Assembly (NCBI RefSeq): GCF_003966695.1
Contig: NZ_AP018827.1
Span: 1,364,001 to 1,428,000, forward strand
Source of the DNA: Asticcacaulis excentricus
Lineage (GTDB): Bacteria > Pseudomonadota > Alphaproteobacteria > Caulobacterales > Caulobacteraceae
Direction: 5' to 3'
Length of the DNA: 64,000 nucleotides
Shown: piece after piece, positions 19,149 to 52,338 of the stretch
How positions within the stretch are numbered: the stretch's first letter is position 1
Layout: each line of letters opens with the position of its first letter
The notes under the pieces: generated by a model
Database searches by the model: none
What the model saw: only the letters and a program-made list of their open reading frames with translations
What the model was told of the DNA's origin: nothing
Program-made: the position numbers and the translations under genes

Positions 19149-19173
19149 AAACGGCGGAGCCTGATCGCAGCTC
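19149..19173. repeat. Candidate attL (left end of the integrated element)
   Basis: 25 bases matching 33145-33169 with two mismatches; the identical core is CTGATCGCAGCTC. It lies between galM and the integrase gene, the usual place for an att site. Its left arm ACGGCGGAG is the exact complement of the CTCCGCCGT found just outside the right end, so the uninterrupted site would have been a perfect hairpin. Confidence 0.75.
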
Positions 19174-19240
19174 AGGTCGGCACGCCATATGTGGATGAAT
19201 TCTCTTATCATATTGCAGTATATAATCTTTTAGTCAAAGT

Positions 19241-19274
19241 GCGACACAAAATTTGTCACACAGACTGTCACACA
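19241..19274 (+). repeat. Left copy of TGTCACACA double repeat (possible integrase arm site)
   Basis: 34 bases starting GCGACACAAA and holding TGTCACACA twice, 12 bases apart (19254 and 19266). It matches 33062-33095 at 31 of 34 positions, in the same orientation. It ends at the integrase start codon, so it could bind integrase for recombination and also autoregulate the gene. Confidence 0.65.
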
Positions 19275-21077
19275 ATGTCCAAGTCACCTGATCATCTGCT
19301 CCTCCGTAGTGGCGTCTACTATTACCGCCGGAGATACCCCCGCGAGCTAGAGAAGCTGTTGGGCCTAGACAAGCCTCAGTTCTTTCAAAAGTCGCTCAGG
19401 ACTAAAAACCTCCGAGAGGCACACAGGCTGGCAGCTATCGAAGACAAGCTATTTGAGGAAGAATGCACCCGACAGCTCACGGGAGAAACACCGGCAACGA
19501 CGGCGGAGGTGGTCTTGACCGACGACTTCCTCAGAGAACTGGCCGCGAAGCAATATAACCGATACATCGAAGAAGACCGGGAACTGATGCGCAAGGCAAA
19601 AAGCGACCCATTGGTCGCTGAACAGGTTGAGCGCATGGCTACATCGCTCGCGCCCTCTGTGGCATTCTCGGCTAAAGGACAACCCCTTCCCCCCCGTCCC
19701 AATGCTCGATCCCATTCGCAGATAGTTCGAGACTACTTTGAACCCGATGTGATGGTTGACGCTGCCATCATTGAGCAAAGACTTGGGTTACGAGGTCACC
19801 CCGGCGCGCGTGACCTCCTATCAGAGGCGTTACTTGACGCTAGGATCAAAGCCTATTGGGCGCAACATACCCTCCCTACCGGAGCGGTTTTTCCTGATGA
19901 CTACAAGCCAACGAGCGGCGAGGATATTCCAGCGCACCCTTCTGAGACCTGGACTATTCGAACGCTAGCTGAGGAATTTATCTCTCAGTGTGATCCCAGC
20001 TCCGGATGGCGTCATAAGATTGAAGTCGCCGCCGACGCCTTCGAGCAAGCACTCGGCACCGCCATACCTTTATCAAAAATCACCAAGCGTCACGTTACCG
20101 CCTACGTTCAACTCATGCTGAGGGTACCCAGTCGCTACACGCATCGTTTCCCCGGAATGAGCCTTCACGATGCTATCGCAGCGAACGGACAACTCCCTGC
20201 TCCATATGAGACTCTCGGTCCCACTACTGTGAAAGAGAACTATCTGTCACCAATAGGTCGATTGTTCGACTTTGCAGAAAACGATTTGCACGCTCGCATA
20301 ACCAGCCCAGCGCGCGGCATTAAAGTGAAGGGTGCGAGCAAGAGCATAGGACGCCGGACGAGCTTTGAGATCGACGAACTCTCCAGACTCTTCAAACAGC
20401 CATTGTTCTCTGGCTGTAAGTCACCGGATCGAACACTGACCCCCGGCGACTTTTTGGTGACCGACCACCAATTCTGGACGCCCCTTTTGATGCTGTTCAC
20501 CGGTGCGCGAGTCAGTGAAATAGCCCAACTCTCGATCACCGATGTCAAGGTTGAGGCATCGACACCTCATATTTCGATACTGACGGAGTTCGATCCCGAC
20601 GACCCCGAAGAACGAGAATACGTAAAGTCCTTCAAAACGGAAAACTCAAAGCGATTGATCCCTTTGCACCCGCAACTGGTAGAGCTGGGCCTCGGTGAGT
20701 ACGTGAAGCATGTTGCGGCGCGAGGATCGAAGAGGCTTTTTCCGGAATGGCCCCTCTCGACAAACGAGAGGAAACTCTACTCATCTGCGACTTGGGTACG
20801 GCGTTTCAATGAGAAAATCATCCCGGAGGTTACGAGTCGTGTGCCTCGGCCGAAAATTTACAACCTACGTCACACGTTTAAAACCCGGCTTGCGATCAGC
20901 GAAGTGCCGCCGCAATATCAAAACAAAATCCTCGGTCATGCACCGATTGCGATGGACAAGCGCTATCTCGACGTTATCCCCATCGACGTGCTCTACAAGT
21001 CGATGCTTTCCCTAAATTACGACGGCTTGGACCTATCCGGCATTGCCAGATACTCACGACGGACGAGCACAAGGTGA
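19275..21077 (+). CDS. Tyrosine site-specific integrase
   Basis: 600 residues from ATG 19275. The N-terminus SPDHLLLRSGVYYYRRRYPREL is the DUF6538-type arm/N domain found in many alphaproteobacterial phage and island integrases. The catalytic domain holds TGARVSEIAQL (first Arg), IYNLRHTFKTRLAISEVP (HxxR as RHTF..R), LGHAPIAMDKRY (His and the nucleophile Tyr in RYLD). A longer frame to 19128 would run through the att region and the repeated arm sites, so it is not preferred. The enzyme should integrate and excise this element at the att core. Confidence 0.9.
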   Translation: MSKSPDHLLLRSGVYYYRRRYPRELEKLLGLDKPQFFQKSLRTKNLREAHRLAAIEDKLFEEECTRQLTGETPATTAEVVLTDDFLRELAAKQYNRYIEEDRELMRKAKSDPLVAEQVERMATSLAPSVAFSAKGQPLPPRPNARSHSQIVRDYFEPDVMVDAAIIEQRLGLRGHPGARDLLSEALLDARIKAYWAQHTLPTGAVFPDDYKPTSGEDIPAHPSETWTIRTLAEEFISQCDPSSGWRHKIEVAADAFEQALGTAIPLSKITKRHVTAYVQLMLRVPSRYTHRFPGMSLHDAIAANGQLPAPYETLGPTTVKENYLSPIGRLFDFAENDLHARITSPARGIKVKGASKSIGRRTSFEIDELSRLFKQPLFSGCKSPDRTLTPGDFLVTDHQFWTPLLMLFTGARVSEIAQLSITDVKVEASTPHISILTEFDPDDPEEREYVKSFKTENSKRLIPLHPQLVELGLGEYVKHVAARGSKRLFPEWPLSTNERKLYSSATWVRRFNEKIIPEVTSRVPRPKIYNLRHTFKTRLAISEVPPQYQNKILGHAPIAMDKRYLDVIPIDVLYKSMLSLNYDGLDLSGIARYSRRTSTR

Positions 21078-21366
21078 CAGCCGCCCCTGACCCCTACGAT
21101 GTCAACGTACTGATAAACCATACTTTTCAATGGCATGGACCGGCAAACACGGGCAAACGTGTTCAAGCGTTTTCAGGGTTTGCCGTTTCTTGGCGTGTCA
21201 CTTGCGTGGCGCCCATCGGATTTTAAGTCCGAAGAAAGTGACTGAAAGATATGGCCTTTTCCTCAAACCAGAGAGGGAAAAGCCCCTTTTCTTTCATGTG
21301 CTTATAGAATCTCGTCAAACCAAAATCGACACCGAGCTGCATGGAAATTGTGAGGTTGAGAGCAAG
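21078..21366. other. Gap between the integrase and hsdR: no gene supported
   Basis: A 126-residue open frame (21130-21510) crosses this gap on the plus strand but runs into hsdR on the opposite strand and has no recognisable motif or ribosome site. A short CGGATTTTAAGTCCG segment near 21220 looks like a tRNA anticodon arm but has no other tRNA parts. Confidence 0.5.
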
Positions 21367-24300
21367 TCAGCTATATCGGGTCGTCACGAAATCCCAAACC
21401 TGCCGCACCTTTTGGTCCCAGACTTCCATTGGGTAAGGCATCTCCGGAAGTTGGTTCAGCCGGACCCTGATCTCGCTGTAAACCGCTCCCCGCGTTTCCT
21501 GAGCCCGTAGCCAGTCCAGATGGTCGGTTAGCTCGTGCAGCTTGCTTAACAGGTCACGAGCGACCTTTTTCACCTCAACCTGCTCTGCGCTCGACAGGAC
21601 CGGCTCAGGCTTTGTCAAGAGGTCGTAGATAGCCAGCTCGTCTTCTGTCAGACCCTCCTTGACCGCACGGTGCTCCTCTTCGTCCATCTCACGGACGAAG
21701 GTTTGTAAGTCTTCAAAGAGGCGTTCAACATCAATGGCACCGGTATTGTAAGCGTCGATTAGCTTCTCCAGCTTTTCGACAAGGTGCACTCGCGTGGGGT
21801 TAGCCCTTGCCATCGACTCAACTCTCGCCTCGGCTTCTTCCCGGAGGGTTTCCGTGGTGACCCTGGGGCTCTCGTGAAACAGGTCGGCAAGCCTGTCGAA
21901 ATCTATGTTTGAAAGGTCAACTCGACCTTCTGCCTTGTCACCGGTGATGATGGGCGCAAGGATGGCTACCCCCTCGATATGTTCGTCCAGCAGTTCGGCA
22001 ATCTGTCTTTGGATAGCGGTGATATCGACCGGTGTGAGCTTGGCCCGGACTGCCTCCGCCAAGGTGTGCAAAACCGCGACGGGCCTAAGGTAAGTTGCCG
22101 CCCGCTCATCCGGAAGGAGTGCCTTATAGGCTTTGGTGACCTCTGAGGTCAGCCTGAAGAACTCCTTGCGTACTTCATCCGGCGCAATCAAAGCCTCTAC
22201 AGCCGACGCAATAAGCCTTAGCCGCGTTAGGGGCTCAGCCTGTGCGATAACAACGGCATCTACATTGTGCGCTTGGACATAGGTTTGCGCCACGTCCAAT
22301 GCCCCTTCCAGCGCCGCGACAAGAGCCGCTTTGTCTTGGATAGGCTCGCCCTCGCCCTCTCCGTCTTGACCGTTCGCACCGCCCGCATAGATGGCGAGGG
22401 CTCGCTGAAGGTTGTTGAAAACACCAACATAATCGACAATGACGCCCGATGTTTTACCGCTCGCCTTACGGTTCGCGCGGGCGATGGTCTGCATCAGCGT
22501 ATGGTTCTTCATGGGCTTGTCGAGATAGACCGTGCCTATAGACGGCACATCAAATCCCGTGATCCACATGGCGCATACAAACACCAACCGAAGTGGATCA
22601 TTCCCGTCTTTGAACTTCTCTTCAAGGTCTTCGGTCTGCATCCGACGACGGTGGTGCGTGATGTCCAGCCCCTTCTTGCGCAGGTCGTCCACCTCGTTCT
22701 GACCCTGACTGACCACCACAGCCATGTCCAGTTCCCGCAACCATGTCAGCCGTTCGGAGATAGCCGCGCCCTCAGCTTCATGAGCCGTCTTCAGCTTGAC
22801 TTCATCTTCCGCGATCAATCGCGCGATAGACAGTTTGACGCGGTTGTACATCGCAACCGCCGTTGCCTTGTCGATGGCAACGAACATGGCCTTTCCGCGA
22901 TAGCCGCGTTGAGAGAAATGCAGCGCCACATCGTCCGCCACCTTGTCCAGCCGGTCAGGGTTGGTGATCAGCGTATACTGCCGGGCGAACTCGCGATTGA
23001 GCTTGGCTTCCTGTGCTTCATCCAGCATGGCATCTTCGAGTAGAGCGTCTAAACCGTCCTGGAGGACGTCTTTATCAAGCTGAAGCTCTGGTTTTCGGGC
23101 CTCGTAATAGAGCGGCACCGTCGCTCCGTCCTTTACCGACTGCGAGAAATCATAAATCGAGACATAGTCACCGAAGACCTCTCGCGTGCGGCTATCCGAA
23201 CCTTTGATCAGCGGGGTGCCGGTGAATCCAATGAAGGCGGCATTCGGTAAGGCCTTCCGCATGTTCATCGCTAAGATGTCATACTGGCTGCGGTGCGCCT
23301 CATCGGTAATAACGATAATGTCTGAACGATCCGACAATACCGGCATGGGCTCGCCGTCACCGGTCGAGAACTTTTGGATGAGAGTAAAGACATAGCGCTC
23401 ATTGCTCGCCAGCAACTCGCGGAGATGTTGCCGACTTGCCGCCTGAGCGTTCTGAATATCCTTGGTCAGTGCACCGGCAGTTTTGAATTGCCCAGAAATC
23501 TGAATATCCAATTCGTTACGGTCAGTCACGATGACAAAGGTATAATTCCCCCCAAGCCGACGAAGAACCTTCTCGGCAAACATGACCATAGAAAGGCTCT
23601 TGCCTGACCCTTGGGTGTGCCAAAAAACCCCCAGCTTCCCTTTGTTGTCGTCGATTTTCTGAACGGCTTCGATAGCGCGGTTGACACCCAAGACCTGGTG
23701 ATACTTGCCGACGACCTTCCGTAAACCGTTTTTGGTTTCATCGAAGAGAAGGAAATTTTCGATCAGGTCAAGGAACCGCTGGGGCTCACAGGTAGCGCGC
23801 AACAGCGTCTCAAGTGACAAGTCTTCCGGCCCGTCCTCGTGCAGCTTTTTCCAAGGGGCAAACACCTCAAAATCAGCATGTGCCGGACCCATCACGGTTT
23901 CGATCCCATTCGACAGGATGACAAAACCGTTGGCGTGGAAAACCTGCGGGATGGTATCGCGATAATCGCGGACATTGTCCTCGTGGGCGCTGGCCAGCGG
24001 CTTCGTTGGCGCCTTCCATTCAGCCAACAACAACGGCAGACCGTTCACATAGCCAATGGTATCCGGGCGACGTTTGTGAAGAAGCCCTTGTAACCAGACC
24101 TGACTGGCGGCGACAAAGTCATTGTTGTGCGCGTCTCGCCAGTCGATAACACGAACCCGATGGTCATCATAACCACCTTTCTCATTCCGGACCTGCACGG
24201 TAACCCCATCGACCAATAGCGCCAAGACATCGCGATTGGCATTGACCGGTGACAAAGCCGACCGATCCTTCGTCAGCTCAATCTCAGCGGCTTCAACCGC

Positions 24301-24519
24301 GCTGATGGGTAGAGATGAGTTGAGCTTCACCAGTGCTGCCCGTAGCCGCGCCGGAAGGTAGGACTGGTGAAAACCGGTTCGGCCCGTTGGATTGGTTGCT
24401 CCCGGTATCTCATGCATCAGATTGATTGCCGTCCAGCCCAAGGCCTCCAATAGCGCTAAGGCGGGCTTTTCCACCACACCGTTTTCAGAGGCAACCATAC
24501 CAGTCAGCGAAGGGGGCAT
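21367..24519 (-). CDS. hsdR: Type I restriction enzyme, R (motor/nuclease) subunit
   Basis: 1050 residues from ATG 24519, one base after the hsdS stop; a longer in-frame start at 24555 would overlap hsdS. The PD-(D/E)xK nuclease motif is visible at D153, E167 and K169 (LLLAEWKAP). The SF2 translocase follows: QGSGKS (Walker A, about 303-308), TDEAHR (about 405-410), FTGTP (about 432-436) and later ARANRKASGK with the motif VI arginine. The C-terminal helical region contacts the methylase core. It cleaves unmethylated DNA after ATP-driven translocation. Full length with no break. Confidence 0.93.
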   Translation of the reverse strand: MPPSLTGMVASENGVVEKPALALLEALGWTAINLMHEIPGATNPTGRTGFHQSYLPARLRAALVKLNSSLPISAVEAAEIELTKDRSALSPVNANRDVLALLVDGVTVQVRNEKGGYDDHRVRVIDWRDAHNNDFVAASQVWLQGLLHKRRPDTIGYVNGLPLLLAEWKAPTKPLASAHEDNVRDYRDTIPQVFHANGFVILSNGIETVMGPAHADFEVFAPWKKLHEDGPEDLSLETLLRATCEPQRFLDLIENFLLFDETKNGLRKVVGKYHQVLGVNRAIEAVQKIDDNKGKLGVFWHTQGSGKSLSMVMFAEKVLRRLGGNYTFVIVTDRNELDIQISGQFKTAGALTKDIQNAQAASRQHLRELLASNERYVFTLIQKFSTGDGEPMPVLSDRSDIIVITDEAHRSQYDILAMNMRKALPNAAFIGFTGTPLIKGSDSRTREVFGDYVSIYDFSQSVKDGATVPLYYEARKPELQLDKDVLQDGLDALLEDAMLDEAQEAKLNREFARQYTLITNPDRLDKVADDVALHFSQRGYRGKAMFVAIDKATAVAMYNRVKLSIARLIAEDEVKLKTAHEAEGAAISERLTWLRELDMAVVVSQGQNEVDDLRKKGLDITHHRRRMQTEDLEEKFKDGNDPLRLVFVCAMWITGFDVPSIGTVYLDKPMKNHTLMQTIARANRKASGKTSGVIVDYVGVFNNLQRALAIYAGGANGQDGEGEGEPIQDKAALVAALEGALDVAQTYVQAHNVDAVVIAQAEPLTRLRLIASAVEALIAPDEVRKEFFRLTSEVTKAYKALLPDERAATYLRPVAVLHTLAEAVRAKLTPVDITAIQRQIAELLDEHIEGVAILAPIITGDKAEGRVDLSNIDFDRLADLFHESPRVTTETLREEAEARVESMARANPTRVHLVEKLEKLIDAYNTGAIDVERLFEDLQTFVREMDEEEHRAVKEGLTEDELAIYDLLTKPEPVLSSAEQVEVKKVARDLLSKLHELTDHLDWLRAQETRGAVYSEIRVRLNQLPEMPYPMEVWDQKVRQVWDFVTTRYS

Positions 24520-24520
24520 C

Positions 24521-25759
24521 TTAGGCGATCTCCAATTCCTTCTCGGCTGCGGCAACCGATAATTGACCCGTCATTAGGCGCGGCAGAAGAAGGTCGCGTG
24601 AGGCAGCGAGATGTTGGTTGGCAAGTGTCAACTTCGCTATAAGATCCAACAACGGACCCGCAAAATCGTGATAATGGCTCATCAATTCATCGGTGGGGAT
24701 AGCTATTTGCACGCTCGAGAACTTCTGCTTGTTCACGTTCGTCATTGTCGCCCCGTTCGACCCAAGATTCTGCAAGTGAGCCTTAAGGCTCTCCAAAGCG
24801 AAATAAAGGTATTCTCGCCAATGAGGATCATGTGGCACGAGAGTGTTAATCTGCTGATTGGTTTGGGACGGTTTGGTGGTAATTGAAACAAGTCCGACAG
24901 TGGCAATGCAACTTACACACAGGGAACCCGCAGGCACTGTCTTACTCATCTGGGAAGATGCACCTTGCGAAGATAGGCTATCCGCCGTCTGCCAAATGAA
25001 CATCGATTGGTGCATATCAGGTATCTTTACGAATGGAACATCGGCACCATAGAAAGCTGGATTAGCCTTGCTCGGTGTTTTCCCCGTTATCACCGCACCC
25101 ATCTGTCCCAGAGTCTTACAGTTCCACCCCTCCGGAAGGGGACCATTGGGAGTGTCAACCAGCGGGACGCTTTCGTGACCGGGAAAGCGGAACCGGACGA
25201 ACCACTCTTCAAAGAGCCCGCGCGCCATCTCCTCTAGAACAGCGATGCGTCGCTGGTTCACCTCGATAAGATCGTCATAGGCACCAAGAATCCCCGCGAT
25301 CCGAGCCTGAGTTTCGAGACTAGGACAATTAATCTCAAGGTCCGAAAAGACTGACTTGTTGATGATCGGTGTGGCTGTACCTGCGGCTCGCGTCCTCAGC
25401 TCGTCGGTCTTTTGTCGCATCGAATAATACACAAAGTGTGCATCAAAAGCTGACGGATCAACAACGATGCTATTGATTTGCTGATTAGTATGGGACGGCT
25501 TCAAGGTCATGCAGACCTTGCCGATAGACGCAATACAGACCACGCATATCGAGCGAGATGGCAGGATCAACCGCTCCTTTACATCCCAAGCTGTCGATAG
25601 ATAACGCTCTGTTTGGATATGCCGCGCATCGTCAGACATGTCGCTCGGTGTAATAAAAGGAATGCCCCCTATAAATAGCTCCGGTTGCGCTGATGGTGGA
25701 GTTTTGCCTGTAATGACTCTTCCCAGATCGCCAATCCTAACGGTCCGCCACTCGCTCAC
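24521..25759 (-). CDS. hsdS: Type I restriction-modification, specificity subunit
   Basis: 412 residues with two target-recognition domains, each starting with the same phrase: WRTVRIGDLGRVITGKTPPSAQPE at the N-terminus and WNCKTLGQMGAVITGKTPSKANPA near residue 205. The first central conserved helix is ILGAYDDLIEVNQRRIAVLEEMARGLFEEWF; the second lies near the C-terminus (LDLIAKLTLANQHLAASRDLLLPRLMTG). The two domains read the two halves of a bipartite DNA site. It overlaps hsdM by four bases (ATGA). Confidence 0.92.
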   Translation of the reverse strand: MSEWRTVRIGDLGRVITGKTPPSAQPELFIGGIPFITPSDMSDDARHIQTERYLSTAWDVKERLILPSRSICVVCIASIGKVCMTLKPSHTNQQINSIVVDPSAFDAHFVYYSMRQKTDELRTRAAGTATPIINKSVFSDLEINCPSLETQARIAGILGAYDDLIEVNQRRIAVLEEMARGLFEEWFVRFRFPGHESVPLVDTPNGPLPEGWNCKTLGQMGAVITGKTPSKANPAFYGADVPFVKIPDMHQSMFIWQTADSLSSQGASSQMSKTVPAGSLCVSCIATVGLVSITTKPSQTNQQINTLVPHDPHWREYLYFALESLKAHLQNLGSNGATMTNVNKQKFSSVQIAIPTDELMSHYHDFAGPLLDLIAKLTLANQHLAASRDLLLPRLMTGQLSVAAAEKELEIA

Positions 25760-27312
25760 GCCAACACCTCTGCCACATTTTGCGCGATTACCGCCTGTAT
25801 GCGCGACGCCTCTGCGTTGAGCCCTTCCAACTCTTCCTGCAAAGCCTCCAGCCGTAACTTGAACTCCTCATCATCTGAGTGTTCACCCTGTGCCACTCCA
25901 ACATACCGTCCAGGATTGAGACTCCAATCCTGAGCCAGAATATCCGAGCGCTTGGCGACGCAACACAAACCGGGAATATCCTTATAACAGTCGTCACCAA
26001 ATAGCTCAGCCAGTCGAGATGCACTTCCGGCCACCGTTTCGATCTCGTTGCCGCGCCATAGCCGGACAATGTTTGCCAGAAGCTCTATCTGGTCCGGCGC
26101 AAAGTCACGGTGAGCGCGTGTGACCTGTCGGAAGATGGTGCGGGCATCTATGAACAGCACCTCATCCTCTCGGGCGGTGGTGCGTTTGCCCTTGTCAAGG
26201 AACCACAGGGTCACCGGTAAGGTAACGGTGAGAAACATGTTTGGCGAGGTCGTGATGATGCAGTCCACGACCCCGCTCTCGATCAGCTTACGGCGCATTT
26301 CGCGTTCACTGCCGCCCGCGTCCGAAGCCGAATTCGCCATGACGAAACCTGCACGGCCTGTCTCGTTTAAAGCAGCCGTAAACAGCCCGATCCAAAGGTA
26401 ATTTGCGTTGTTTATTGAGGGGATACCCAACGAAAATCGTGCATCAACCACGCCAGTCTGTTGTGACAATAACGAGCGGTCAACCTCAGACTGATTAAAG
26501 GGAGGGTTCGCCATGACATAGTCAAATTTACCCACCAGATCGTGCGGGTCTTCGTAATAACTGTTTGCCTCGCGTATATCGCCAGATAACCCATGAACTG
26601 CTAAGTTCAGACTGCACAATTTACGGGTGTCAGGCATCTTCTCAGTACCGTAAACGCTGATCTCGCGGCTTGGCGACATATGATGACGTCGCACAAACTC
26701 TGCCGAATGCACAAACATGCCGCCAGAGCCGCAGGCAGGGTCGAAAATCTTTCCATGGTAAGGCTCGATCACTTCGACGATTAGCTTCACAATGGACGAC
26801 GGAGTGAAATACTCTCCACCCTTCTCCATAAATGCAGAGGCAAACGCATCCATAAAGTATTCAAAGATCAAGCCATAGGCGTCACCTGTGATCTCCAGTG
26901 GCTGAAGCAATCGCAGCAGTTCACGCAATACTCGATCCGGAAGGGCTCCATATCCCTGCGGCAGGATACCTCTAAGATCGGGATTGTGCTCGGCCACCAA
27001 CTCCATTGCTGTATTTAGAGCTCTTCCGAGGTCCTCAGCTTCTGGGAGTGCAAGCAGGAAAGAGAAACGCGCTTCTTCTGGGAGGAACATCGCACCTTTG
27101 GCATGATAATCAGGTGCTGTAGCACGCAGCCGCCCTGTGAATGTCTTCGATAGTGCGGCGTGGACATCGTTGAACTTGGCTTCCATCTGACGAAGCGCAA
27201 TGAGCGCGAGGACCGGCTGAGAATACTGGTGTGGTCGAAGCGTCGTATTGGTCCATAGCTGATTTGCAGTCTTAAAAAGACGTCGCGAAAGGTCCTGAAG
27301 GTCAACAGACAT
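25756..27312 (-). CDS. hsdM: Type I restriction-modification, methyltransferase subunit
   Basis: 518 residues. The SAM-binding motif I is DPACGSGG (191-198) and the catalytic motif IV is NPPF (269-272), the pattern of N6-adenine methylases. EKGGEYFTPSSIVKLIVEVI precedes motif I as in the N6_Mtase family, and an HsdM N-terminal helical domain occupies about residues 1-140. The order hsdM-hsdS-hsdR with ATGA or one-base junctions makes one operon. No strong ribosome site is visible before the ATG at 27312. Confidence 0.93.
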   Translation of the reverse strand: MSVDLQDLSRRLFKTANQLWTNTTLRPHQYSQPVLALIALRQMEAKFNDVHAALSKTFTGRLRATAPDYHAKGAMFLPEEARFSFLLALPEAEDLGRALNTAMELVAEHNPDLRGILPQGYGALPDRVLRELLRLLQPLEITGDAYGLIFEYFMDAFASAFMEKGGEYFTPSSIVKLIVEVIEPYHGKIFDPACGSGGMFVHSAEFVRRHHMSPSREISVYGTEKMPDTRKLCSLNLAVHGLSGDIREANSYYEDPHDLVGKFDYVMANPPFNQSEVDRSLLSQQTGVVDARFSLGIPSINNANYLWIGLFTAALNETGRAGFVMANSASDAGGSEREMRRKLIESGVVDCIITTSPNMFLTVTLPVTLWFLDKGKRTTAREDEVLFIDARTIFRQVTRAHRDFAPDQIELLANIVRLWRGNEIETVAGSASRLAELFGDDCYKDIPGLCCVAKRSDILAQDWSLNPGRYVGVAQGEHSDDEEFKLRLEALQEELEGLNAEASRIQAVIAQNVAEVLA

Positions 27313-27566
27313 ATATACTCGCTTAGTGTGGGTTATCCCGTGACTCTACCAGAGAGACACCATATGCACGTTGGACCATGTTCCGAGAGGCACCGTCAAG
27401 CCCGCATAGATGGCACTGCGCCTCATATGTGTATACCCCGGCTAGGCGCCCCCACGCTGCCGGGAAACCCTTGAAGCCGTCCACAAGAGGGTGCCTTATT
27501 CGGTGGACGCCGAAATAATGAGGCGGTAATTTCGGAAGGTCATAGACCCACACGAGACACCTTACC

Positions 27567-28121
27567 ATGAGCCTCACCGTCGGTTACGCCCGCGTTTCAT
27601 CCTCCGGCCAATCCCTCGAAGTTCAGGAGGAGCAGCTTCGCGCCGCAGGCTGCACAGAGCTATTCGCAGAGAAGAAGTCCGGGACCACCACGGACGGACG
27701 CGAGCAGCTTGAAGCCGCCCTCAAGTTCGTCCGTAAAGGCGACATATTCGTAGTGACCCGCCTCGACCGCCTCGCCCGCTCAATTACGGACCTCCGCCAG
27801 ATCATTGACCGTCTGACTGAAAAGCAGGTGGACTTCCGGTGTCTCCAGCAAAGCGGGCTCGACACCACGAAGGCCGAGGGGCGGCTGATGCTTAACATCC
27901 TCGCCAGCTTCGCTGAGTTTGAAACCGAACTGCGCAAGGAGCGCCAGCGCGAGGGTATCGACAAGGCTAAAGCCGCTGGTGTCTACAAAGGACGTCCCAA
28001 GACCATTGACGCCGAACAAGTCAAAGCGCTCCGTGACGCGGGCGTCGGTGGTACGGAAATCGCCAAGCGTCTGGGTATCGCCCGCGCGTCCGTCTACCGG
28101 ATGCTGACGGGGTCGCAATAA
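27567..28121 (+). CDS. Serine recombinase (resolvase/invertase family)
   Basis: 184 residues: catalytic domain with the nucleophile serine in VGYARVSS (S11), the RLDRLARS motif, and the dimer helix LASFAEFETELRKERQREGI; then a C-terminal helix-turn-helix GTEIAKRLGIARASVYRML. This is the small resolvase/Pin layout, used for resolving cointegrates or inverting DNA. It is divergent from hsdM with about 250 bases between. No paired resolution site was identified with confidence. Confidence 0.9.
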   Translation: MSLTVGYARVSSSGQSLEVQEEQLRAAGCTELFAEKKSGTTTDGREQLEAALKFVRKGDIFVVTRLDRLARSITDLRQIIDRLTEKQVDFRCLQQSGLDTTKAEGRLMLNILASFAEFETELRKERQREGIDKAKAAGVYKGRPKTIDAEQVKALRDAGVGGTEIAKRLGIARASVYRMLTGSQ

Positions 28122-28248
28122 AACCCTTCGAGCTTAAATCGCATAAGCCTAAGAGACGTTTCGCAGCCCTCCGCTCCTATGTCCGGAGAAAATGTCAAGT
28201 TTGCAGGGTAGCCCAGAAGGTCTAGCCGTCACGACATTTCGCTCCCAT

Positions 28249-28617
28249 TTAGCAGTAACGTCGAGTGCAAATTTCCCATTTTTTGCCAGATTGATCCTCA
28301 CCAGTCAAATTGCCGAAGCTCGGAAGACATGAAACCGAAAATTCTTGATTGCAAGACACGAAGATATTTTCAAGTTTAATGATAGCTACTTCACCTTCAC
28401 CAAAAAATAGGAGGGCATACTTATCCCAAGCACTATAATTGAAAGATTTTGTGGCTCTATTTAGCTCACTTCCGAGCAAGAAGGTCACCCGCATGTCGTA
28501 CCAGTCAGATTGCCCGTAACTGACATCGTACCTCACCTTGGCAGCGGTCGTGACCTCGGCTCCCGCTGGTGAAGCGACCGTCGCCATAGCGAGTAGTGCC
28601 AGTACAAACGCTCTCAT
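28249..28617 (-). CDS. Small exported hypothetical protein
   Basis: 122 residues with a clear signal peptide (MRAFVLALLAMATVASPAGAE). The mature part has several Cys residues near the C-terminus (VSCNQEFSVSCLPSF, ICTRRYC), consistent with periplasmic disulfides. No family recognised. Confidence 0.6.
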   Translation of the reverse strand: MRAFVLALLAMATVASPAGAEVTTAAKVRYDVSYGQSDWYDMRVTFLLGSELNRATKSFNYSAWDKYALLFFGEGEVAIIKLENIFVSCNQEFSVSCLPSFGNLTGEDQSGKKWEICTRRYC

Positions 28618-28724
28618 AATCTCCCCCTAATGAAACCATCCAGACAATCACATCTCAGCGTTGCATTCAGTTGTGGCACGACAGTTTGAGTCCGGCAAGG
28701 TCGTATTGACGTTCGATCATTGGG

Positions 28725-29156
28725 TCACCGCCCCTGCCGGACAAGCGCGATTGTCAGCCCCTTCATAGTCAAGTCATCCGGGTCATTCGCCATCTGTGCC
28801 GCGAACGCCCCAAGGTCGCCACCGCATCCTTCGATAGCGTCCAGCCATGAATTGATCATGTGGTCGCGCTGAGCCGCCGAAACCAATTCCGGACGGTGGA
28901 TCAGGAATGTCTGATAGTGGGCCTCCTCCGTGGCGACGCTCACTCGACGCGCGGCACAGTCCATCGTCTTGTTGTACTCCCCCGGATGCGCCTTCATGCG
29001 CTCGACCAGCTTCGCCTTCTCCGTTGCTATTTGCTCGCGCCAGACAGCCTCTTCGGCGGCTTCACGCTCGCGCTGTTCCTGCGGGCTTTCGCATCCGTAC
29101 AGGGCGGCAAAAAAACCACCAACCATCAGCAAGCCAACCACATACCGTTTCTTCAT
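28725..29156 (-). CDS. Small putative lipoprotein
   Basis: 143 residues from ATG 29156 (GGAAAGGG upstream); a longer frame to 29270 lacks support. The N-terminus MKKRYVVGLLMVGGFFAALYGC looks like a lipoprotein signal with an atypical LYGC lipobox. The mature chain begins with a charged helix (EQREREAAEEAVWREQIATEKAKL), probably a coiled coil. No family recognised. Confidence 0.6.
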   Translation of the reverse strand: MKKRYVVGLLMVGGFFAALYGCESPQEQREREAAEEAVWREQIATEKAKLVERMKAHPGEYNKTMDCAARRVSVATEEAHYQTFLIHRPELVSAAQRDHMINSWLDAIEGCGGDLGAFAAQMANDPDDLTMKGLTIALVRQGR

Positions 29157-29392
29157 AGGAATACCCTTTCCAAAAGCAACGGTTACAGAGCGGGACGGCA
29201 ATCGGCACAAGGGTGAATTCCACCTGAGACCGCAGCCGTCCACAGACGGCTTCTCCTGAATTATCTGCAATAACCCCTAGACTTGCGAGTTATCCACATG
29301 GTATCATAGTATGTCCGGACGATATAACTCCCTCGAAGCCTACCTTGACGTAGCATGGAGACATCCCCGGCTCACTATAACCCCCTTATGAA

Positions 29393-29992
29393 ATGACTAC
29401 CCACTCTCTCAGCTCTGTACCGGGTCCTCGTGCGTACCCCGCGTACATAACCGCCAGAACGCACCGCGAAAAGCTCATCGAAGGCTACGCTGATCTTTAC
29501 AAGCAGAACGGAGCTACCCACGCACTGACCATTGCGTTGGGCCTTCATCCCCGGCGGTTTGATCCGGAAACGGAGCTTCTTCCTCAACTTCGCCGGATCG
29601 CCAGAGAGATCGCAGATCAGCTCCGTGACGTCCCAAAACGAAAGCTCATGAGATTACGTCCGGAAGACGCGGTGTTCATGGCTGGTTTCTACGAGCCCAA
29701 AGATGGGGCGGGCGAATTGTACCCACACTTTCATGGTGTCATCTCCCTTCGGGAGGGTGAGGAGCGTTTGCTCCGGAGCGTCCTCACCGAGACCGTGGGA
29801 GCCGACAGCTCTCAGCCGAGTTCTTTGCTGGTTCCTCCGTCACGGCCCGTCATATCGACGCCGCGCGCGAAACCTAGCTTTGACCTGCAACCACTGACGG
29901 AAGACGCCAGGTATATTCGGTATGCCACTAAACAGGTCCAAGGGTTAGACGTCACCCATTGGACCATAGCCGACATACTGAGCCACCGCTAA
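29393..29992 (+). CDS. HUH-type replication initiator-like protein
   Basis: 199 residues with the three rolling-circle Rep motifs in order: THALTIAL (42-49, motif I), PHFHGVI with the HxH pair H112 and H114 (motif II) and RYIRYATKQ with a YxxK pattern Y177-K180 (motif III). HUH enzymes nick DNA through a tyrosine to start replication or transfer. The chain is short and lacks a helicase, as in small plasmid and satellite Reps. It lies just ahead of an 8-bp tandem repeat array. The call rests on motifs only; a degenerate or regulatory relative is possible. Confidence 0.65.
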   Translation: MTTHSLSSVPGPRAYPAYITARTHREKLIEGYADLYKQNGATHALTIALGLHPRRFDPETELLPQLRRIAREIADQLRDVPKRKLMRLRPEDAVFMAGFYEPKDGAGELYPHFHGVISLREGEERLLRSVLTETVGADSSQPSSLLVPPSRPVISTPRAKPSFDLQPLTEDARYIRYATKQVQGLDVTHWTIADILSHR

Positions 29993-30017
29993 GCCAAGTA
30001 TCAGAAAACCAAAGAAC

Positions 30018-30105
30018 CTACGACCTTACGACCCCACGACCCCACGACCCCACGACCCTACGACCCTACGACCCTACGACCCTACGACCCTACGACCCTA
30101 CGACC
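30018..30105. repeat. Tandem array of 11 copies of an 8-base unit
   Basis: Eleven uninterrupted units of YYACGACC: CTACGACC, TTACGACC, three CCACGACC and six CTACGACC, followed by CCAAAAAAAA. It starts 26 bases after the Rep-like gene. The period of 8 is not a multiple of 3, and no supported gene crosses it. It could be an iteron-like origin or a slippage-prone spacer. Confidence 0.85.
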
Positions 30106-30402
30106 CCAAAAAAAAGATCAATCAAAGAAAAGCAACCCCAAGAAGTGTCTTGAAGCTTCGCGGGTCAAAATTCCTCTGAAACGTCCGAACCGCCTCGCGT
30201 GCGAGGGCAGGTGGCTCAGAGGTCCCGGTGGTGGATTTGCCATAGCCGGTGTTCCGGAAACGAAGGACACAACGTTTTCCGAGACTGCTAGAGCGCGGTC
30301 AGCCGACAGTGTCACGCACCACGCGCCCGTCATTAATGACCCGGAGACCCACCGACTTGGGTCGCGATGGCCTCGGTTCAAAACCGAGCGCCAATTTAAG
30401 TC
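30106..30402. promoter_or_regulatory. Leader region of the HTH gene with a small palindrome
   Basis: No gene is supported. CTCGGTT-CAA-AACCGAG (30372-30388) forms a 7-bp hairpin about 15 bases before the HTH gene and could be its operator. Nothing else distinct was seen. Confidence 0.4.
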
Positions 30403-30627
30403 ATGTCTAAAACACAAACGAAAGCCATCAAAATGAACAACGAAACGATCACCTCTCAATACCTGAACGCCAAACAAGCCGCACGCTTCACAAACCTCTC
30501 CACACAAAGCCTCTACAAGTTCGATAAGCAAGGAAAGGGACCAATCAAGATCAAGGTAGGCGGACGGGTCCTCTTCGATAAGAACGACCTCACAGCTTGG
30601 ATGGACGCACAGAAGATCAAGCACTAA
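30403..30627 (+). CDS. AlpA/excisionase-type helix-turn-helix protein
   Basis: 74 residues with a MerR-like HTH_17 domain: YLNAKQAARFTNLSTQSLYKFDKQGKGPIKIKVGGRVLFDKNDLTAWM, the pattern of AlpA and recombination directionality factors that bend att DNA or control the integrase. A second in-frame ATG at 30433 would still include the whole domain. In this element it is the best candidate for an excisionase or main regulator. Confidence 0.8.
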   Translation: MSKTQTKAIKMNNETITSQYLNAKQAARFTNLSTQSLYKFDKQGKGPIKIKVGGRVLFDKNDLTAWMDAQKIKH

Positions 30628-30647
30628 GACACATCATAAAACAGACA

Positions 30648-30680
30648 GGGAATGCCGCTCGATAAACGGACGGTATTCCC
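30648..30680 (+). terminator. Hairpin after the HTH gene
   Basis: GGGAATGCCG and CGGTATTCCC pair over 10 positions (one G-U in RNA) with a 13-base loop, starting 20 bases after the stop at 30627. No T tract follows. Confidence 0.45.
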
Positions 30681-31274
30681 TCCCACCCTTCACCGGGACC
30701 ATGACGATCAATCGTGTCTCTGGAATAACCGAGGTCTTAGACGTCTCGACTGCCCTGTCACCCGGTTGCCTTATGTGGGGACTGGGAAATAGGTCACCTC
30801 CCTTATATAAGGCTCGCATGAATATGATGCTCGGCCTGTCGGTGGTGACAGCCACGATCACCGCAGCCGCTTAGAAGGTTCCGGGGTCAGAATGCGATAA
30901 GGTCGCGACCCGCTACAGCGTCCCTCTCACCCCAGCGATGGCTCCGGAAGCCTGAAACCGTACAATAGCGAACAATAGCGAACGATTTTACCACATACGT
31001 TTAATAATTGTCAGTTCTTACAATATCTGACTACAGCTTACCGCCTGGCCCCCATTTCCAGTTTTTGCTGGCTGGGGACGGGTCTTAGAGGGCGCGCAAC
31101 CCATACAAAACAAGTCAGGTGCGACGGCATAAGGACCCACGGTGTAGGCACAGACCAGCCCCTTTGCGCCGCTGAAAGTCTCTTTCCTGCGCCGCACGTT
31201 TTTCGGTTCTCTTACCCCTCGACCGCGACTCAACAGGATCGTCGCGCCGTCGGTGGTGGACATCCGGACAGAAG
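30681..31274. other. Gap inside the element without a supported gene
   Basis: Short open frames on the minus strand (30634-30861 and 31018-31323) have no motif, ribosome site or typical composition. AATAGCGAAC occurs twice in tandem near 30965-30984. An 18-residue hydrophobic plus-strand frame at about 30818 has no ribosome site. Confidence 0.45.
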
Positions 31275-31412
31275 CTACCCCCAGCGCCACAGCAGATAGG
31301 TGGCAGGCAGTAGCAATAGCCATGACGGATTTGGCTGCGAAACCAGCGGCAACAGACCGCCAAGCACCAGCAACACGACATAACCTGCGATTTTGAGCTG
31401 TTGCCGCTTCAT
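31275..31412 (-). CDS. Small membrane protein, 45 residues
   Basis: ATG at 31412 is preceded by GGGGGAGG, the strongest ribosome site in this part of the element. The protein starts MKRQQLKIAGYVVLLVLGGL and has two short hydrophobic stretches (GYVVLLVLGGLLPLV and WLLLLPATYLLW) separated by a QPNPS turn, so a two-pass or hairpin membrane peptide is likely. The family is unknown. Its size hides it from usual length cut-offs. Confidence 0.6.
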   Translation of the reverse strand: MKRQQLKIAGYVVLLVLGGLLPLVSQPNPSWLLLLPATYLLWRWG

Positions 31413-31495
31413 GACCTCCCCCGGACAGGTTGGCAGGTTACCCACACTGGCGCGAATTTGTCCACAGAACGTTAACGCCGCAGCGCGTCACTCCA

Positions 31496-31512
31496 GATTG
31501 ACTCTGTCAATC
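31496..31512. promoter_or_regulatory. Palindrome upstream of the Cys-rich protein gene
   Basis: GATTGAC-TCT-GTCAATC is a perfect 7-bp inverted repeat. It contains a TTGACT that could be a -35 box, and it lies about 38 bases before the ATG at 31550, so an operator overlapping a promoter is plausible. Confidence 0.4.
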
Positions 31513-31549
31513 AATGAGAACAAATTAAGAACACTCACGGAGAAGTCAG

Positions 31550-31858
31550 ATGCAACAGCCCACCGAACTCGAACGCCTTGTGTCCGCTCTTGAAGGTCAG
31601 TGGTTAAAAAGGACGAAGTTAGAAGACCTCCCGCCATCATCCCGGTTACGCTGCACCTGTCGCACATGCGGCAAGTCTCGAACAGAGTCCGTCGGGCTTA
31701 TGGTTCGCGGGCCTCGCCTCGGCAGGGTCACTGTCGGCGACTTGGAGACGCTCCTGACCTGTCACAGCCCGAAATGCGGCGGGGCTCTGGACATGGCACT
31801 GGCATATGAACGCGCGGGCTTAACCTCTCTTCCTTTGAATTATGGTCGCCTCCACTGA
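31550..31858 (+). CDS. Cys-rich hypothetical protein, possible zinc-binding
   Basis: 102 residues, with GGAGAAG before the ATG. The pattern RCTCRTCGKSR (C..C..C near residues 34-40) and LTCHSPKCGG (C..C near residues 69-74) suggests one zinc site. The last 17 bases overlap the next open frame. No family recognised; such small zinc proteins are common on mobile elements. Confidence 0.65.
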   Translation: MQQPTELERLVSALEGQWLKRTKLEDLPPSSRLRCTCRTCGKSRTESVGLMVRGPRLGRVTVGDLETLLTCHSPKCGGALDMALAYERAGLTSLPLNYGRLH

Positions 31859-32072
31859 TGACCCCGGAGCCAAATTGAAGCGCACCCCTCAAGATGAAGC
31901 CTTTCGGCTCCGGTTTCTCGCCGTGGTTCATGACGCTATGGCCTCACGTCAGAAAGAGCTGGGAAGCACAGGCCAGGTTCATTGCGAACGTGCCCGCAAG
32001 CTCCGGATACATGCCGATTTGATCGAGCAGGGCGTGATTACCGCTCGCCCGCTCCAAACACCGTCGCCGTGA
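31842..32072 (+). CDS. Hypothetical protein, 76 residues
   Basis: The frame overlaps the Cys-rich gene by 17 bases and reads a charged helical protein (DEAFRLRFLAVVHDAMASRQKELG, then ERARKLRIHADLIEQGVI). No ribosome site is visible; coupling to the upstream gene could explain this. Its final codons run into the direct repeat that starts at 32069. Confidence 0.45.
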   Translation: MVASTDDPGAKLKRTPQDEAFRLRFLAVVHDAMASRQKELGSTGQVHCERARKLRIHADLIEQGVITARPLQTPSP

Positions 32073-32144
32073 CTCAGGGAAGCTCGCTGGCGGCGGTCGG
32101 GAGGTTTTAGGTGGCGATGTACCGCCGGAGCAGTTTGCCCGCCT
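32069..32144 (+). repeat. Imperfect direct repeat, left copy (flanks the DUF805 gene)
   Basis: Starts GTGACTCAGGGA, passes GTACCG.CGGA and ends TTTGCCCGCCT. The same order recurs at 32846-32922 with scattered substitutions that preserve the ends. Confidence 0.65.
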
Positions 32145-32285
32145 GTGACCATCAGGTGAGTCGCCACGGGGCATAGGTGTCAGGCCGACGATCTAACGCG
32201 GGCGGCACACCTCTCCCCAACGAGTCAAAGTTGACTTTCTCACTCATGAAGCCGATCATCTTCACAGTCAGATATGGGGGATGTG

Positions 32286-32777
32286 ATGATAGAGTTCCTG
32301 TTTAGCTTTCAGGGCCGGGTTCGGCGCAGAGACTACTGTCTGTTCAATCTCGCACTATTCATACTAGTGTGCTGCATCACCGCCCCGGAACTTGCACAGG
32401 TTGACAAACTATCCAGCCTCCTGCGCATCCTGAGCACGGGCTATCACGACTTCTATGCGTACTTAGGTCGCATCCTTGACAGGCTCTTAGCGCCTCTGGC
32501 CGTTGCACCCGGATGGCTAAAGATGACCATCGGTTATGCGTGCTTCGGCGCAATAGCGTGGGTGCGCCTCGCTTTGGCGGTTAAACGCTGGCATGACCGA
32601 GACAAGTCCGGGTACTGGGTTCTCATTGAGTTGCTGCCGGTGGTAGGCCTTATATGGTCATTTATCCAGACCATCATTCTGCCGGGCACGGTTGGCGACA
32701 ACCAATATGGACCTGACCCTAAAGCTCAAGGTACAACAGAGGGTGGCGATGCTCATATCCCCGCCCGGTACATATGA
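32286..32777 (+). CDS. DUF805 membrane protein
   Basis: 163 residues from ATG 32286 (GGGGGATGTG just before it); an ATG at 32274 is in frame and would add four residues. The DUF805 marks are present: FSFQGRVRRRDYCLFNLALF at the N-terminus, AVKRWHDRDKSGYWVLIELLPVVGLIW and the final GDNQYGPDP. Three or four transmembrane helices. The family's function is unknown. It sits near the right end of the element, between two copies of a direct repeat. Confidence 0.85.
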   Translation: MIEFLFSFQGRVRRRDYCLFNLALFILVCCITAPELAQVDKLSSLLRILSTGYHDFYAYLGRILDRLLAPLAVAPGWLKMTIGYACFGAIAWVRLALAVKRWHDRDKSGYWVLIELLPVVGLIWSFIQTIILPGTVGDNQYGPDPKAQGTTEGGDAHIPARYI

Positions 32778-32845
32778 CCTTGTAAAGCGTACTTAGCAGA
32801 GCGCTGAGATAGTACCCTTCCGGTCAGCGACAGGCTTGCTGTGCC

Positions 32846-32922
32846 GTGACTCAGGGACGCACGCTGACGGTGATCGGCGTGATTTTTGATGGTTGAGTAC
32901 CGTCGGACCATTTTGCCCGCCT
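32846..32922 (+). repeat. Imperfect direct repeat, right copy
   Basis: Partner of 32069-32144. It starts with the same GTGACTCAGGGA and ends TTTTGCCCGCCT. Followed at once by TAGAGCG, which also opens the repeat at 1173. Confidence 0.65.
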
Positions 32923-33061
32923 AGAGCGTTCTGGCAGCTTTTTCCGAAGACTTTTATGCCGCGAGGCAAGGAATCGCATCCGCATCCAGATGCAGCGAGC
33001 CGAATCTGAGGGCGGTTCGAGCGCCCGTACCGAGCTTGAAGCGGTGTACCCAGCCCGTGAG

Positions 33062-33095
33062 GCGACACAAAAACTGTCACACAAACTGTCACACA
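33062..33095 (+). repeat. Right copy of TGTCACACA double repeat (possible integrase arm site)
   Basis: Begins GCGACACAAA and holds TGTCACACA at 33075 and 33087, 12 bases apart, in the same orientation as the left copy. It lies 49 bases inside the candidate attR core. Confidence 0.65.
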
Positions 33096-33144
33096 GCGCA
33101 GGCTAGATGAGGTCTATATAATTGATTTTATTTACAAAAAGAAG

Positions 33145-33169
33145 AAACGACGGAGACTGATCGCAGCTC
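33145..33169. repeat. Candidate attR (right end of the integrated element)
   Basis: 25 bases matching 19149-19173 with two mismatches and the identical core CTGATCGCAGCTC. It is the upstream half of the xylE terminator stem on the minus strand, so insertion rebuilt the terminator with element DNA. Confidence 0.75.
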
Positions 33170-45733: not shown

Positions 45734-45791
45734 TGCGGCCGTTTACCCGCAGCCCTGCCCGCCTCTGGCCTTCCTATAGGAGTTTTTGACC

Positions 45792-46964
45792 ATGACTGAT
45801 CTTCTTCCCGGTGTAACGGGGGTTCTGGTTCTGGCCGATGGCACCGTGTTTCAGGGCCTGGGCTGTGGCGCGACCGGCGATGCGCTGGGCGAGGTCTGCT
45901 TCAATACGGCCATGACCGGCTATCAGGAAATCCTCACCGATCCGTCCTATATGGATCAGATCGTCGCCTTCACCTTCCCGCACGTCGGCAATGTCGGCGT
46001 CAATCCGGAAGACGTCGAACAACTGGGCGATGATCCCCGCCGGGCCGCCAGAGGCGCGATTTTCCGCGACCTGCCGACGCCGCCCGCCAACTGGCGCTCG
46101 ACCCTCAGCTTCGATGCGTGGATGGCCTCGCGCGGCGTCGTGGGCCTCGCCGGGATCGACACGCGCGCGCTGACCAAGCGCATCCGCGAAAAGGGCATGC
46201 CGCACGGCGTGATCGCCCACAACCCCGAAGGTCAGTTCGACATCCCCGCCCTGACGCAAAAGGCCGCCGAATGGGCGGGTCTTGTCGGGCTGGATCTGGC
46301 CAAGGACGCCACCTCGACCCAGTCGGCGCAATGGACCTCCGACCTGTGGAAGTGGTCCGAAGGCCATAAGGACGGTCAGAAGGCGGACTTCGACGTCGTC
46401 GTCATCGACTATGGCGTGAAGCAGAACATCCTGCGCGCCCTGATCAGCGTCGGTGCGGCGGTAAAGATCGTCCCGGCCCAGACGCCGGCCGAAGAGATTC
46501 TGGCGATGAAGCCCGATGGCGTGCTGTTGTCCAACGGTCCGGGCGATCCGGCCGCCACCGGGGCCTATGCCGTACCGCAGATTCAGAAGCTGGTCGAAGC
46601 CGGTCTGCCGGTCTTTGGCATTTGTCTCGGCCATCAGATGCTGGCTCTGGCGCTGGGGGCGAAGACGCTCAAGATGGAACAGGGCCACCACGGCGCCAAC
46701 CACCCGGTCAAGGACCTGACCACCAACAAGGTTGAGATCGTTTCGATGAACCACGGCTTTGCGGTCGATCGCGACAGCCTGCCCTCCGGTGTCGTCGAAA
46801 CCCATGTCTCGCTGTTTGACGGCACCAACTGCGGTATCGCTCTGGCTGGCAAGCCGGTGTTCAGCGTCCAGCACCACCCCGAAGCCTCGCCCGGCCCGGT
46901 CGATTCGCTCTATCTGTTCGAGCGTTTTGCGCACTATATGCGCGACGCCAAGGTGGCGGTTTAA
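45792..46964 (+). CDS. carA: Carbamoyl-phosphate synthase small chain
   Basis: 390 residues from ATG 45792 (ATAGGAG upstream). An N-terminal CPSase domain ([24 protein letters not shown]) is followed by a class I glutamine amidotransferase: [21 protein letters not shown], the nucleophile Cys in [10 protein letters not shown], and [11 protein letters not shown] with the His/Glu. It delivers ammonia to CarB for pyrimidine and arginine synthesis. In many bacteria carB follows directly; here an AT-rich two-gene island lies between. Confidence 0.95.
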
Positions 46965-47030: not shown

Positions 47031-48380
47031 ATGCTTAGTGCAATTACTATCCAAAATTTCAAAAGCTATGTGAGCGCGAAGCTTCCGCTTTCGCCGCTTA
47101 CAGTTCTTATAGGTGCAAACGCATCAGGAAAGAGCAATGCTATTGAAGCAATGCGGCTACTTGCTTGGATGGCACAAGGGCAAAAGCTTTCTGCCATACA
47201 ATACGCTGTGCAAAATGGCGATAGATTTGTCAGAGGAAATATCAAAGATTTAGGTTACTGTGGAAGTTCTCTATTTGAATTAGGATGCGAGAATAAATCC
47301 GAGACATATAATTCATATAAAATACAAATAGAGAGAAGAATAGATGGGCTTCATATAGTAGAAGAAGAATTAACTTCAAATCACACTACGGTCCCGCTTT
47401 ATCGCTTAGAGCATCCTTCCATTGGGCAGGGCACTGACGTTAGCGTTTCGTACGATAATTTTGCGCGTGGAGGCAAAAAGCCTAAAATTGTTTGCAATGA
47501 CCAGCTTGCAATTTTAACGCAGTTAACGAGCCCCGCCACATTCAACTCTGAACATAAACAATCTAGAAGACTTATTCCTAGATACACAAAACATTACGAG
47601 TCACTTTTGTCTTCCATGTTGTTTCTCGACCCCGTTCCAGCGAAGATGAGAGATTATACATTCCCGTCTGATAGAATATTACAAAGCGACGGATCAAATT
47701 TGTCTGGCGTTCTGTTTGATCTATGGAATAGTGAGATGGATCTTGAAGATTTATTAGAATCCGAAAACAATATTCCAGTTGATTTAAAACCAATTCAACG
47801 CGACATTATAAGCTTTATACAAAGCCTACCGGAACAAGATATCTCAAAATTAAGCTTTATTCGCGAGCCTCGCGGCGGGGTAATGGTACAACTTACCGAA
47901 ACCTTCGGCGATGGGGAACGGAATTACGATGCATCATTACTTTCGGATGGAACTTTAAGGGTTCTAGCAATTTCTGCGGCAATGCTATCCGCAATAGAGG
48001 GAAGCATTGTAGTTATTGAAGAAATAGACAATGGTGTCCACCCCAGCCGGGCAAAGCATCTTCTGGAAAAAATTCAGCAAATTGCAGAAAAAAGAAATAT
48101 AAGAGTTCTTCTATCTACCCATAACCCAGCACTTCTAGACGCACTACCCGATTCCGCAATCCCTGACGTTGTTTTTTGCTATAGAAGTAAGGAAAATGGA
48201 TCAAGTCAATTAATAAAATTAGAGAACATTTCTGATTATCCGGAATTAATAGCTCAGGGCACGCTTGGGCACCTCGTAACCAGCGGCCTACTAGAGCGTT
48301 TTGTGAAAAATCATAAAAGTGGATTAGAAAAAAGAAACAATGCTTTGAAATGGCTTTCAGAAATTAGTAATAGAGTCTAA
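47031..48380 (+). CDS. ABC/AAA_21-type ATPase of the carA-carB island
   Basis: 449 residues. ATP-binding parts of the RecF/SMC/ABC type: IQNFKSY opening, Walker A GANASGKS (28-35), a signature-like LLSDGTLR (304-309), Walker B IVVIEEID (326-333) and a switch histidine in STHNPALLDAL (H364). The middle, about residues 90-280, is variable and unassigned. There is no TOPRIM domain, so it is not a full OLD nuclease. It is very AT-rich compared with its neighbours. The PIN gene begins two bases after its stop, so the two form one unit. A sensor or motor that controls the PIN partner is the likely role. Confidence 0.85.
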   Translation: MLSAITIQNFKSYVSAKLPLSPLTVLIGANASGKSNAIEAMRLLAWMAQGQKLSAIQYAVQNGDRFVRGNIKDLGYCGSSLFELGCENKSETYNSYKIQIERRIDGLHIVEEELTSNHTTVPLYRLEHPSIGQGTDVSVSYDNFARGGKKPKIVCNDQLAILTQLTSPATFNSEHKQSRRLIPRYTKHYESLLSSMLFLDPVPAKMRDYTFPSDRILQSDGSNLSGVLFDLWNSEMDLEDLLESENNIPVDLKPIQRDIISFIQSLPEQDISKLSFIREPRGGVMVQLTETFGDGERNYDASLLSDGTLRVLAISAAMLSAIEGSIVVIEEIDNGVHPSRAKHLLEKIQQIAEKRNIRVLLSTHNPALLDALPDSAIPDVVFCYRSKENGSSQLIKLENISDYPELIAQGTLGHLVTSGLLERFVKNHKSGLEKRNNALKWLSEISNRV

Positions 48381-48382
48381 CT

Positions 48383-49043: not shown

Positions 49044-52338
<3,295 letters not shown>

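Follow-up and report, generated by a model that had tools for sequence, protein, structure and literature searches.

We describe here a candidate replication module within an integrated element of Asticcacaulis excentricus, found in a window (the whole stretch of DNA that was analysed) of 64,000 nucleotides. We consider it likely that its Rep-like gene encodes an HUH rolling-circle initiator of an unnamed family and that the stretch from 30018 to about 30412 is the origin region on which this initiator acts. The element has a small gene for a predicted nicking Rep, followed by short repeats and a hairpin series that are found again next to relatives of the gene in other bacteria, and so it probably brings along an origin for copying itself once it is out of the chromosome. 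The rep gene, the 8-nt repeats and the hairpin series would form a compact candidate module of about 1 kb that is common to several Caulobacteraceae genera. Since it is found in capsid-bearing as well as capsid-less elements, the module is movable and testable as one piece.

Table 1. Features of the candidate module and of the element that carries it, in window coordinates
Feature	Position	Strand	Evidence
HUH Rep-like protein, 199 aa	29393-29992	+	invariant motifs, AlphaFold model, Foldseek phage replication-protein matches
Candidate Rep-binding repeats, 11 x 8-bp YYACGACC	30018-30105	+	sequence, TRF; 8-nt period at same place in relatives
Conserved structured non-coding region	30173-30393	+	local score of window against L074; P1, P2 and last hairpin conserved
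P1, CCTCTGA / TCAGAGG	30173-30222	+	paired in 8/8 loci, sequence changing
P2, CGGT-g-GTGG atttg CCAT-a-GCCG	30226-30248	+	inner helix paired in 8/8
Last hairpin	30368-30393	+	8/8 loci, mean folding z -3.4
Motif past last hairpin, near TATGCCTRAA in relatives	30394-30412	+	speculative nick-site candidate
Integrated element, ~14.0 kb	19149-33169	.	end repeats, GC profile, empty site in L022
attL, shared core CTGATCGCAGCTC, inside host terminator-like hairpin	19149-19173	+	25-bp direct repeat
TGTCACACA repeats, likely integrase arm sites (putative role)	19241-19274; second copy 33062-33095	+	repeat family D3
Tyrosine integrase, DUF6538 N-terminus	19275-21077	+	Pfam DUF6538 1.3e-11, Phage_integrase 7.2e-12
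Type I restriction-modification cargo	21367-27312	-	hsdR 21367-24555, hsdS 24521-25759, hsdM 25756-27312
Serine resolvase	27567-28121	+	Pfam Resolvase 1.1e-41
AlpA/excisionase-like HTH protein	30403-30627	+	HTH_17 1.5e-8, phrog_66 5.5e-11
attR	33145-33169	+	23/25 bases same as attL

The Rep-like protein and its family

The three motifs reported in the initial annotation are all present in the Rep-like protein: motif I, THALTIALG at residues 42-50 with H43 and T46; motif II, HFH at 112-114 (H112xH114); and motif III, YATK at 177-180 (Y177xxK180). The protein was aligned with eight relatives, that is, all those found except L019. In this alignment (A9), 21 columns are invariant, including H43, T46, H112, H114, Y177 and K180. 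The P-H-x-H of HUH Rep motif II is identical in all nine sequences, and Y177 and K180, C-terminal to HxH and carried on the helix 172-182, have the arrangement of motif III. The two histidines, Tyr177 and Lys180 are thus retained in 8/8 aligned relatives, and the annotation of the gene as an HUH Rep withstands this comparison.

Structure prediction does not contradict it either. The AlphaFold model built from A9 (pLDDT 81.5, pTM 0.76) runs through strand 43-48, a helix, strand 96-103, strand 109-117 with the HxH, helix 123-134, strand 162-167 and helix 172-182 with the YxxK, which is the b-a-b-b(HxH)-a-b-a(YxxK) topology of the HUH (RRM-like) fold. With an earlier model (pLDDT 67.7), Foldseek returned 12 viral matches at E<=1e-3, among which the named ones are a Replication gene A protein and a Replication associated protein. 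Just behind, at E 0.002-0.003, came a microvirus initiator and the replication protein of a Vibrio phage. Solved structures gave no Foldseek match at E<=1e-3, and their ranking, which is not significant, placed AAV2 Rep first, MVM NS1 second and geminivirus Rep fourth.

Relaxases and Rep_trans proteins were considered as alternative classes and rejected. In relaxases (MOB), the catalytic tyrosine lies N-terminal to the histidine motif; here the invariant tyrosine sits C-terminal to HxH, i.e. in Rep order. Rep_trans (PF02486) is defined by a tyrosine on a beta strand together with acidic metal ligands, and the protein has a helix tyrosine and HxH. A helix-borne YxxK marks HUH Reps and not Rep_trans (PMC5714925), and because the YxxK lies on a helix here, the protein fits HUH rather than Rep_trans.

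No curated family in Pfam, PHROGs or NCBIfam matched the protein or any relative. Single-sequence searches with it found nothing in Pfam, PHROGs, NCBIfam, PDB, plasmids or phages, and sequence relatives were absent from the plasmid and phage records searched. It is therefore filed as HUH-type under no named Rep family. Scanning genome contigs with the window protein alone as query found none, and an alignment-based search of genome contigs gave three Rep loci. The relatives are the Brevundimonas loci L016, L017 and L018, the IMG/VR contigs L019 and L020, and the Caulobacteraceae genomes L074-L077; in the searches made here, the family is confined to Caulobacteraceae genomes and these two IMG/VR contigs. 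L015 and L052 were weak matches only. The protein P0001 (L004, G162) is a distant relative that can be aligned to the family and has a weak Pfam match to REP_ORF2-G2P (E 0.095). Downstream of it there is no room for the module, and we retain it as a weak link between the family and REP_ORF2-G2P.

Hairpins and repeats downstream of the gene

A structured region lies 3' of rep at eight of eight loci; upstream of rep, the window shares no sequence with L016, L017 or L018. The arms of P1 differ between loci, from CCTCTGA/TCAGAGG in the window to CCCCTCG/CGAGGGG in L074, and its summed helix length of 53 compares with a maximum of 49 in 400 mononucleotide shuffles, a test biased in its favour by borders that were picked by eye beforehand. 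In the inner helix of P2, two pairs are altered on both sides in L075. A P3 helix may also be visible by eye in the conserved region, along with a possible P1-loop pseudoknot. The fold of the window region as a whole is ordinary (z about -1), and the weight rests on the conserved helices.

Homology of the window region is clear for L074 (local score 105, shuffle maximum 43) and for L017 (46 against 38), and marginal for L018. Pairwise alignment with L075, L016, L076 and L077 was not significant, so that homology to these loci is indirect. A covariance model (R1) built from L016, L020, L017 and L018 found, over 390 genomes, strong matches at its own training loci only. It misses the window, and the genomes of L074-L077 yielded no match to it either; homology of the window region thus depends on the pairwise scores, and a model as narrow as R1 does not prove that the region is restricted to sites beside rep. 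Seven weak R1 matches (L059-L065) were rejected, as they overlap other ORFs and come with no rep-like gene of the family, and so were P2-pattern matches in 59 viral contigs, which have no convincing rep.

The main rival to the origin reading takes the conserved hairpins for part of a transcript, a regulatory element or processed RNA of the rep-to-alpA region, in which the repeats could be protein- or RNA-binding sites. In its favour, the conserved helices lie on the rep strand, the seven inner P2 pairs show more G-U pairs (8) than A-C mismatches (2), and in the window the last hairpin ends about 10 nt 5' of the first ATG of the alpA-like ORF. However, folding on one strand is also true of single-strand origins, and the genes downstream vary among relatives. 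Rfam, moreover, is blank in the window stretch and reports just tRNAs in L016-L018, and R1 revealed no convincing rep-free copy in 390 genomes, a weak argument given that it misses the window and L074-L077. We regard such an RNA as unlikely, with a small but real chance of being correct.

The array between rep and the hairpins was described exactly in the initial annotation: 11 perfect units over 88 bases, every one of which fits YYACGACC, beginning 26 bases past the rep stop codon. It is the top tandem array in the window (TRF score 152). Its 24-base three-unit pattern has no other site in the 3.79-Mb genome with 2 mismatches allowed, and in a sample of 149 genomes of relatives none of the other 148 contains it. 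Chance occurrence was rejected on the TRF score and this genome-wide uniqueness.

An 8-nt period is found at the same place in the relatives. For seven other loci (L074, L075, L016, L017, L018, L076, L077), the linker between the rep stop and the first hairpin, its end placed by eye at the first P1 arm, gave a combined z of 5.8 at lag 8 and 3.5 at lag 16, with none of the remaining lags from 4 to 15 above 0.8. Random segments from these loci reached the lag-8 value in 0 of 4000 draws, and dropping L018 and L077, one member of each close pair (L017/L018, L076/L077), gave the same z. L074 has an 8-nt array with a unit near CCTAGAAC, which lacks ACGA (lag-8 z 5.2), and L075 has CCAAACGA x 3.9 (lag-8 z 4.4); the joint lag-8 signal of the five weak loci was equalled in one of 4000 random draws. 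The periodic stretches of the relatives mostly have an ACGA core. At each locus with at least two copies of this core (11 in the window, 4 in L075 and 2 each in L018, L076 and L077), the copies stand at positions that are equal modulo 8. The number of units falls from 11 to two or three weak ones across loci. If Rep binds the repeats, the loci would be a natural series of arrays, of 2 to 11 units with drifting unit sequence, useful for studying the joint change of HUH Reps and their repeats. As a separate observation, TCACGACC-type octamer arrays occur in the apparently unrelated IMG/VR contigs L054 (2100-2400) and L055 (835-858), in the latter upstream of terminase-like genes.

It might be argued that the protein is an HUH Rep and the array an ordinary microsatellite, expanded by slippage and without a role. 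An array this long exists at the window locus only, its C/T variants occur in runs, as from recent duplication, and the similar arrays of the two unrelated IMG/VR contigs agree with this. Yet L074 and L075 hold arrays of other 8-nt units at the same place, and the period of the five further loci is hardly ever equalled by random draws. Since the 8-nt period is conserved, a functionless array is quite unlikely, though slippage may still account for the array's length today.

We give still less credence to the idea that the hairpins are a structured RNA partner of the HUH protein and not an origin, for example a guide or a scaffold whose variable part would be the 8-nt repeats. It is very improbable; if true, hairpin RNA and HUH protein would represent a new kind of RNA-associated HUH system.

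From their sequences, the 8-nt repeats and the structured region fit a rolling-circle origin, in which candidate Rep-binding repeats are combined with hairpins.

The integrated elements

The module had been placed on an integrated element, and this is confirmed by the tyrosine integrase, by att sites that match each other and by the empty site that a close relative retains. L022 has one uninterrupted copy of the site, CAAACGGCGGAGCCTGATCGCAGCTCCGCCGTCC, next to a transporter gene 97% identical to that of the window. The element stands out by its low GC content, which is 53-57% between about 19.1 and 33.2 kb and ~62% in the surrounding sequence. The stretch into which it inserted, just past the sugar-transporter gene, looks like the intrinsic terminator of that gene. 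HsdM was assigned by Pfam (N6_Mtase 2.4e-75, HsdM_N), and HsdR and HsdS from sequence and gene order. The AlpA-like protein matches HTH_17 and excisionase families, with a Pfam AlpA score of 18 bits that is below the cut-off of 21. As its first ATG (30403) lies in the conserved TATGCCTRAA-like motif, the true start is probably the ATG at 30433. Near the right end of the element, a DUF805 gene is flanked by two adjoining 35-40-base blocks that are present at 32066-32144 and again at 32843-32922, 777 bp apart and 78-86% alike. Elsewhere in the window, between carA (45786-46964) and carB (49044-52340), a two-gene cassette (47031-48871, GC 41%) encodes two proteins named from sequence only, a 449-aa AAA/OLD-like ATPase and a 162-aa PIN-like protein, and has the look of a defence-type insertion.

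The rep genes of L016, L074, L075 and L076 likewise have a resolvase nearby (recognised from sequence only in L074 and L076). In Brevundimonas guildfordensis, the element of about 14 kb composed of L016 1-8537 and L137 733-4213 adjoins a tRNA gene. Besides the resolvase and the rep module, it encodes an integrase with DUF6538, a TerL terminase, a GP7-like capsid protein and a Mu F-like head protein. With terminase and capsid genes present and no tail genes seen in it, this element is reminiscent of satellites that form capsids. In L074, an integrase-like protein that contains DUF6538 occurs together with an ATPase cargo gene and a resolvase, and L018 has an integrase and hsd-like genes. These contexts differ, and one rep module is therefore in use by elements of more than one type. 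The ATPase gene of L074 (3294-5921), beside the resolvase-rep module, encodes an 875-aa protein with an AAA/KAP-like domain and is possible defence cargo. Directly 5' of rep, in capsid-bearing elements, lies a gene for a familyless protein of roughly 185 aa (L016 7420-7971, L075 7738-8301).

The initial annotation had proposed an origin of replication or of transfer. The array indeed belongs to a module conserved with the gene, as for an origin of replication; a transfer origin gains no specific support, as the tyrosine follows HxH and no conjugation gene was seen among the element genes examined. A mobilisation or transposition enzyme, with the region as oriT or with an action on palindromes like that of REP-associated transposases, is accordingly extremely unlikely, for although HUH enzymes cover all three roles (PMC5714925) and the element is mobile, the motifs are in Rep and not relaxase order, the tyrosine integrase and att sites already explain integration, conjugation genes are lacking among those examined, and the named fold matches are replication proteins.

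Proposed mechanism and known systems

Under the origin reading, the integrase would most likely excise the element as a circle, with the AlpA-like protein probably acting as excision factor, and we infer that the element replicates after excision. An oligomer of Rep would bind the tandem 8-bp repeats and nick one strand nearby, using Tyr177 and the HxH-bound metal, with displacement synthesis to follow. The role of the hairpin series would be to expose the nick site, to act as single-strand origin, or both, and multimers may be resolved by the resolvase.

The iterons of theta plasmids are longer than the 8-bp tandem units found here, and the closest parallels are pMV158 (11 bp) and AAV (4 bp). 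RepB of pMV158 recognises three tandem repeats of 11 bp close to a hairpin that contains the nick site (PMC9943647). The parallel lies in its being a small HUH Rep whose primary binding site consists of tandem direct repeats next to such a hairpin; it differs in having three 11-bp repeats instead of 8-bp units and in serving an autonomous plasmid, and a sequence match to it was not found. The Rep of AAV5 binds a row of five tandem units of 4 bp (PMC9943647). AAV and parvovirus Reps resemble the proposed system in placing an HUH domain on contiguous, very short tandem repeats and in the solved fold ranked first, though not significantly, whereas repeat length, a linear hairpin genome, an attached helicase domain and the eukaryotic virus set them apart. 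Reps of ssDNA phages (microvirus, inovirus, replication gene A) are the best significant fold matches, but they lack a sequence match, and the family described here resides in elements with a tyrosine integrase, some of which also have capsid and terminase genes of dsDNA-phage type.

The element as a whole resembles P4-like and PICI-like satellites or islands in its size of 14 kb, its integrase, its AlpA-like gene and its defence cargo; it has the integrase and AlpA-type regulator of P4-like satellites, and the Brevundimonas relative, with its terminase and capsid genes and no tail genes seen, adds to the likeness. In contrast to them, no primase-helicase gene was seen in the ORF list of the window element, and the HUH Rep seems to be the basis of replication. 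No paper describing the Rep family or the module was found in a literature search that left most subscription journals outside. HUH Reps are a kind already known, as are Rep-binding repeats in tandem and elements that integrate and then replicate once excised; the protein family, the conserved 8-nt period with its hairpin series, and their use by both capsid-bearing and capsid-less Caulobacteraceae elements appear to be new.
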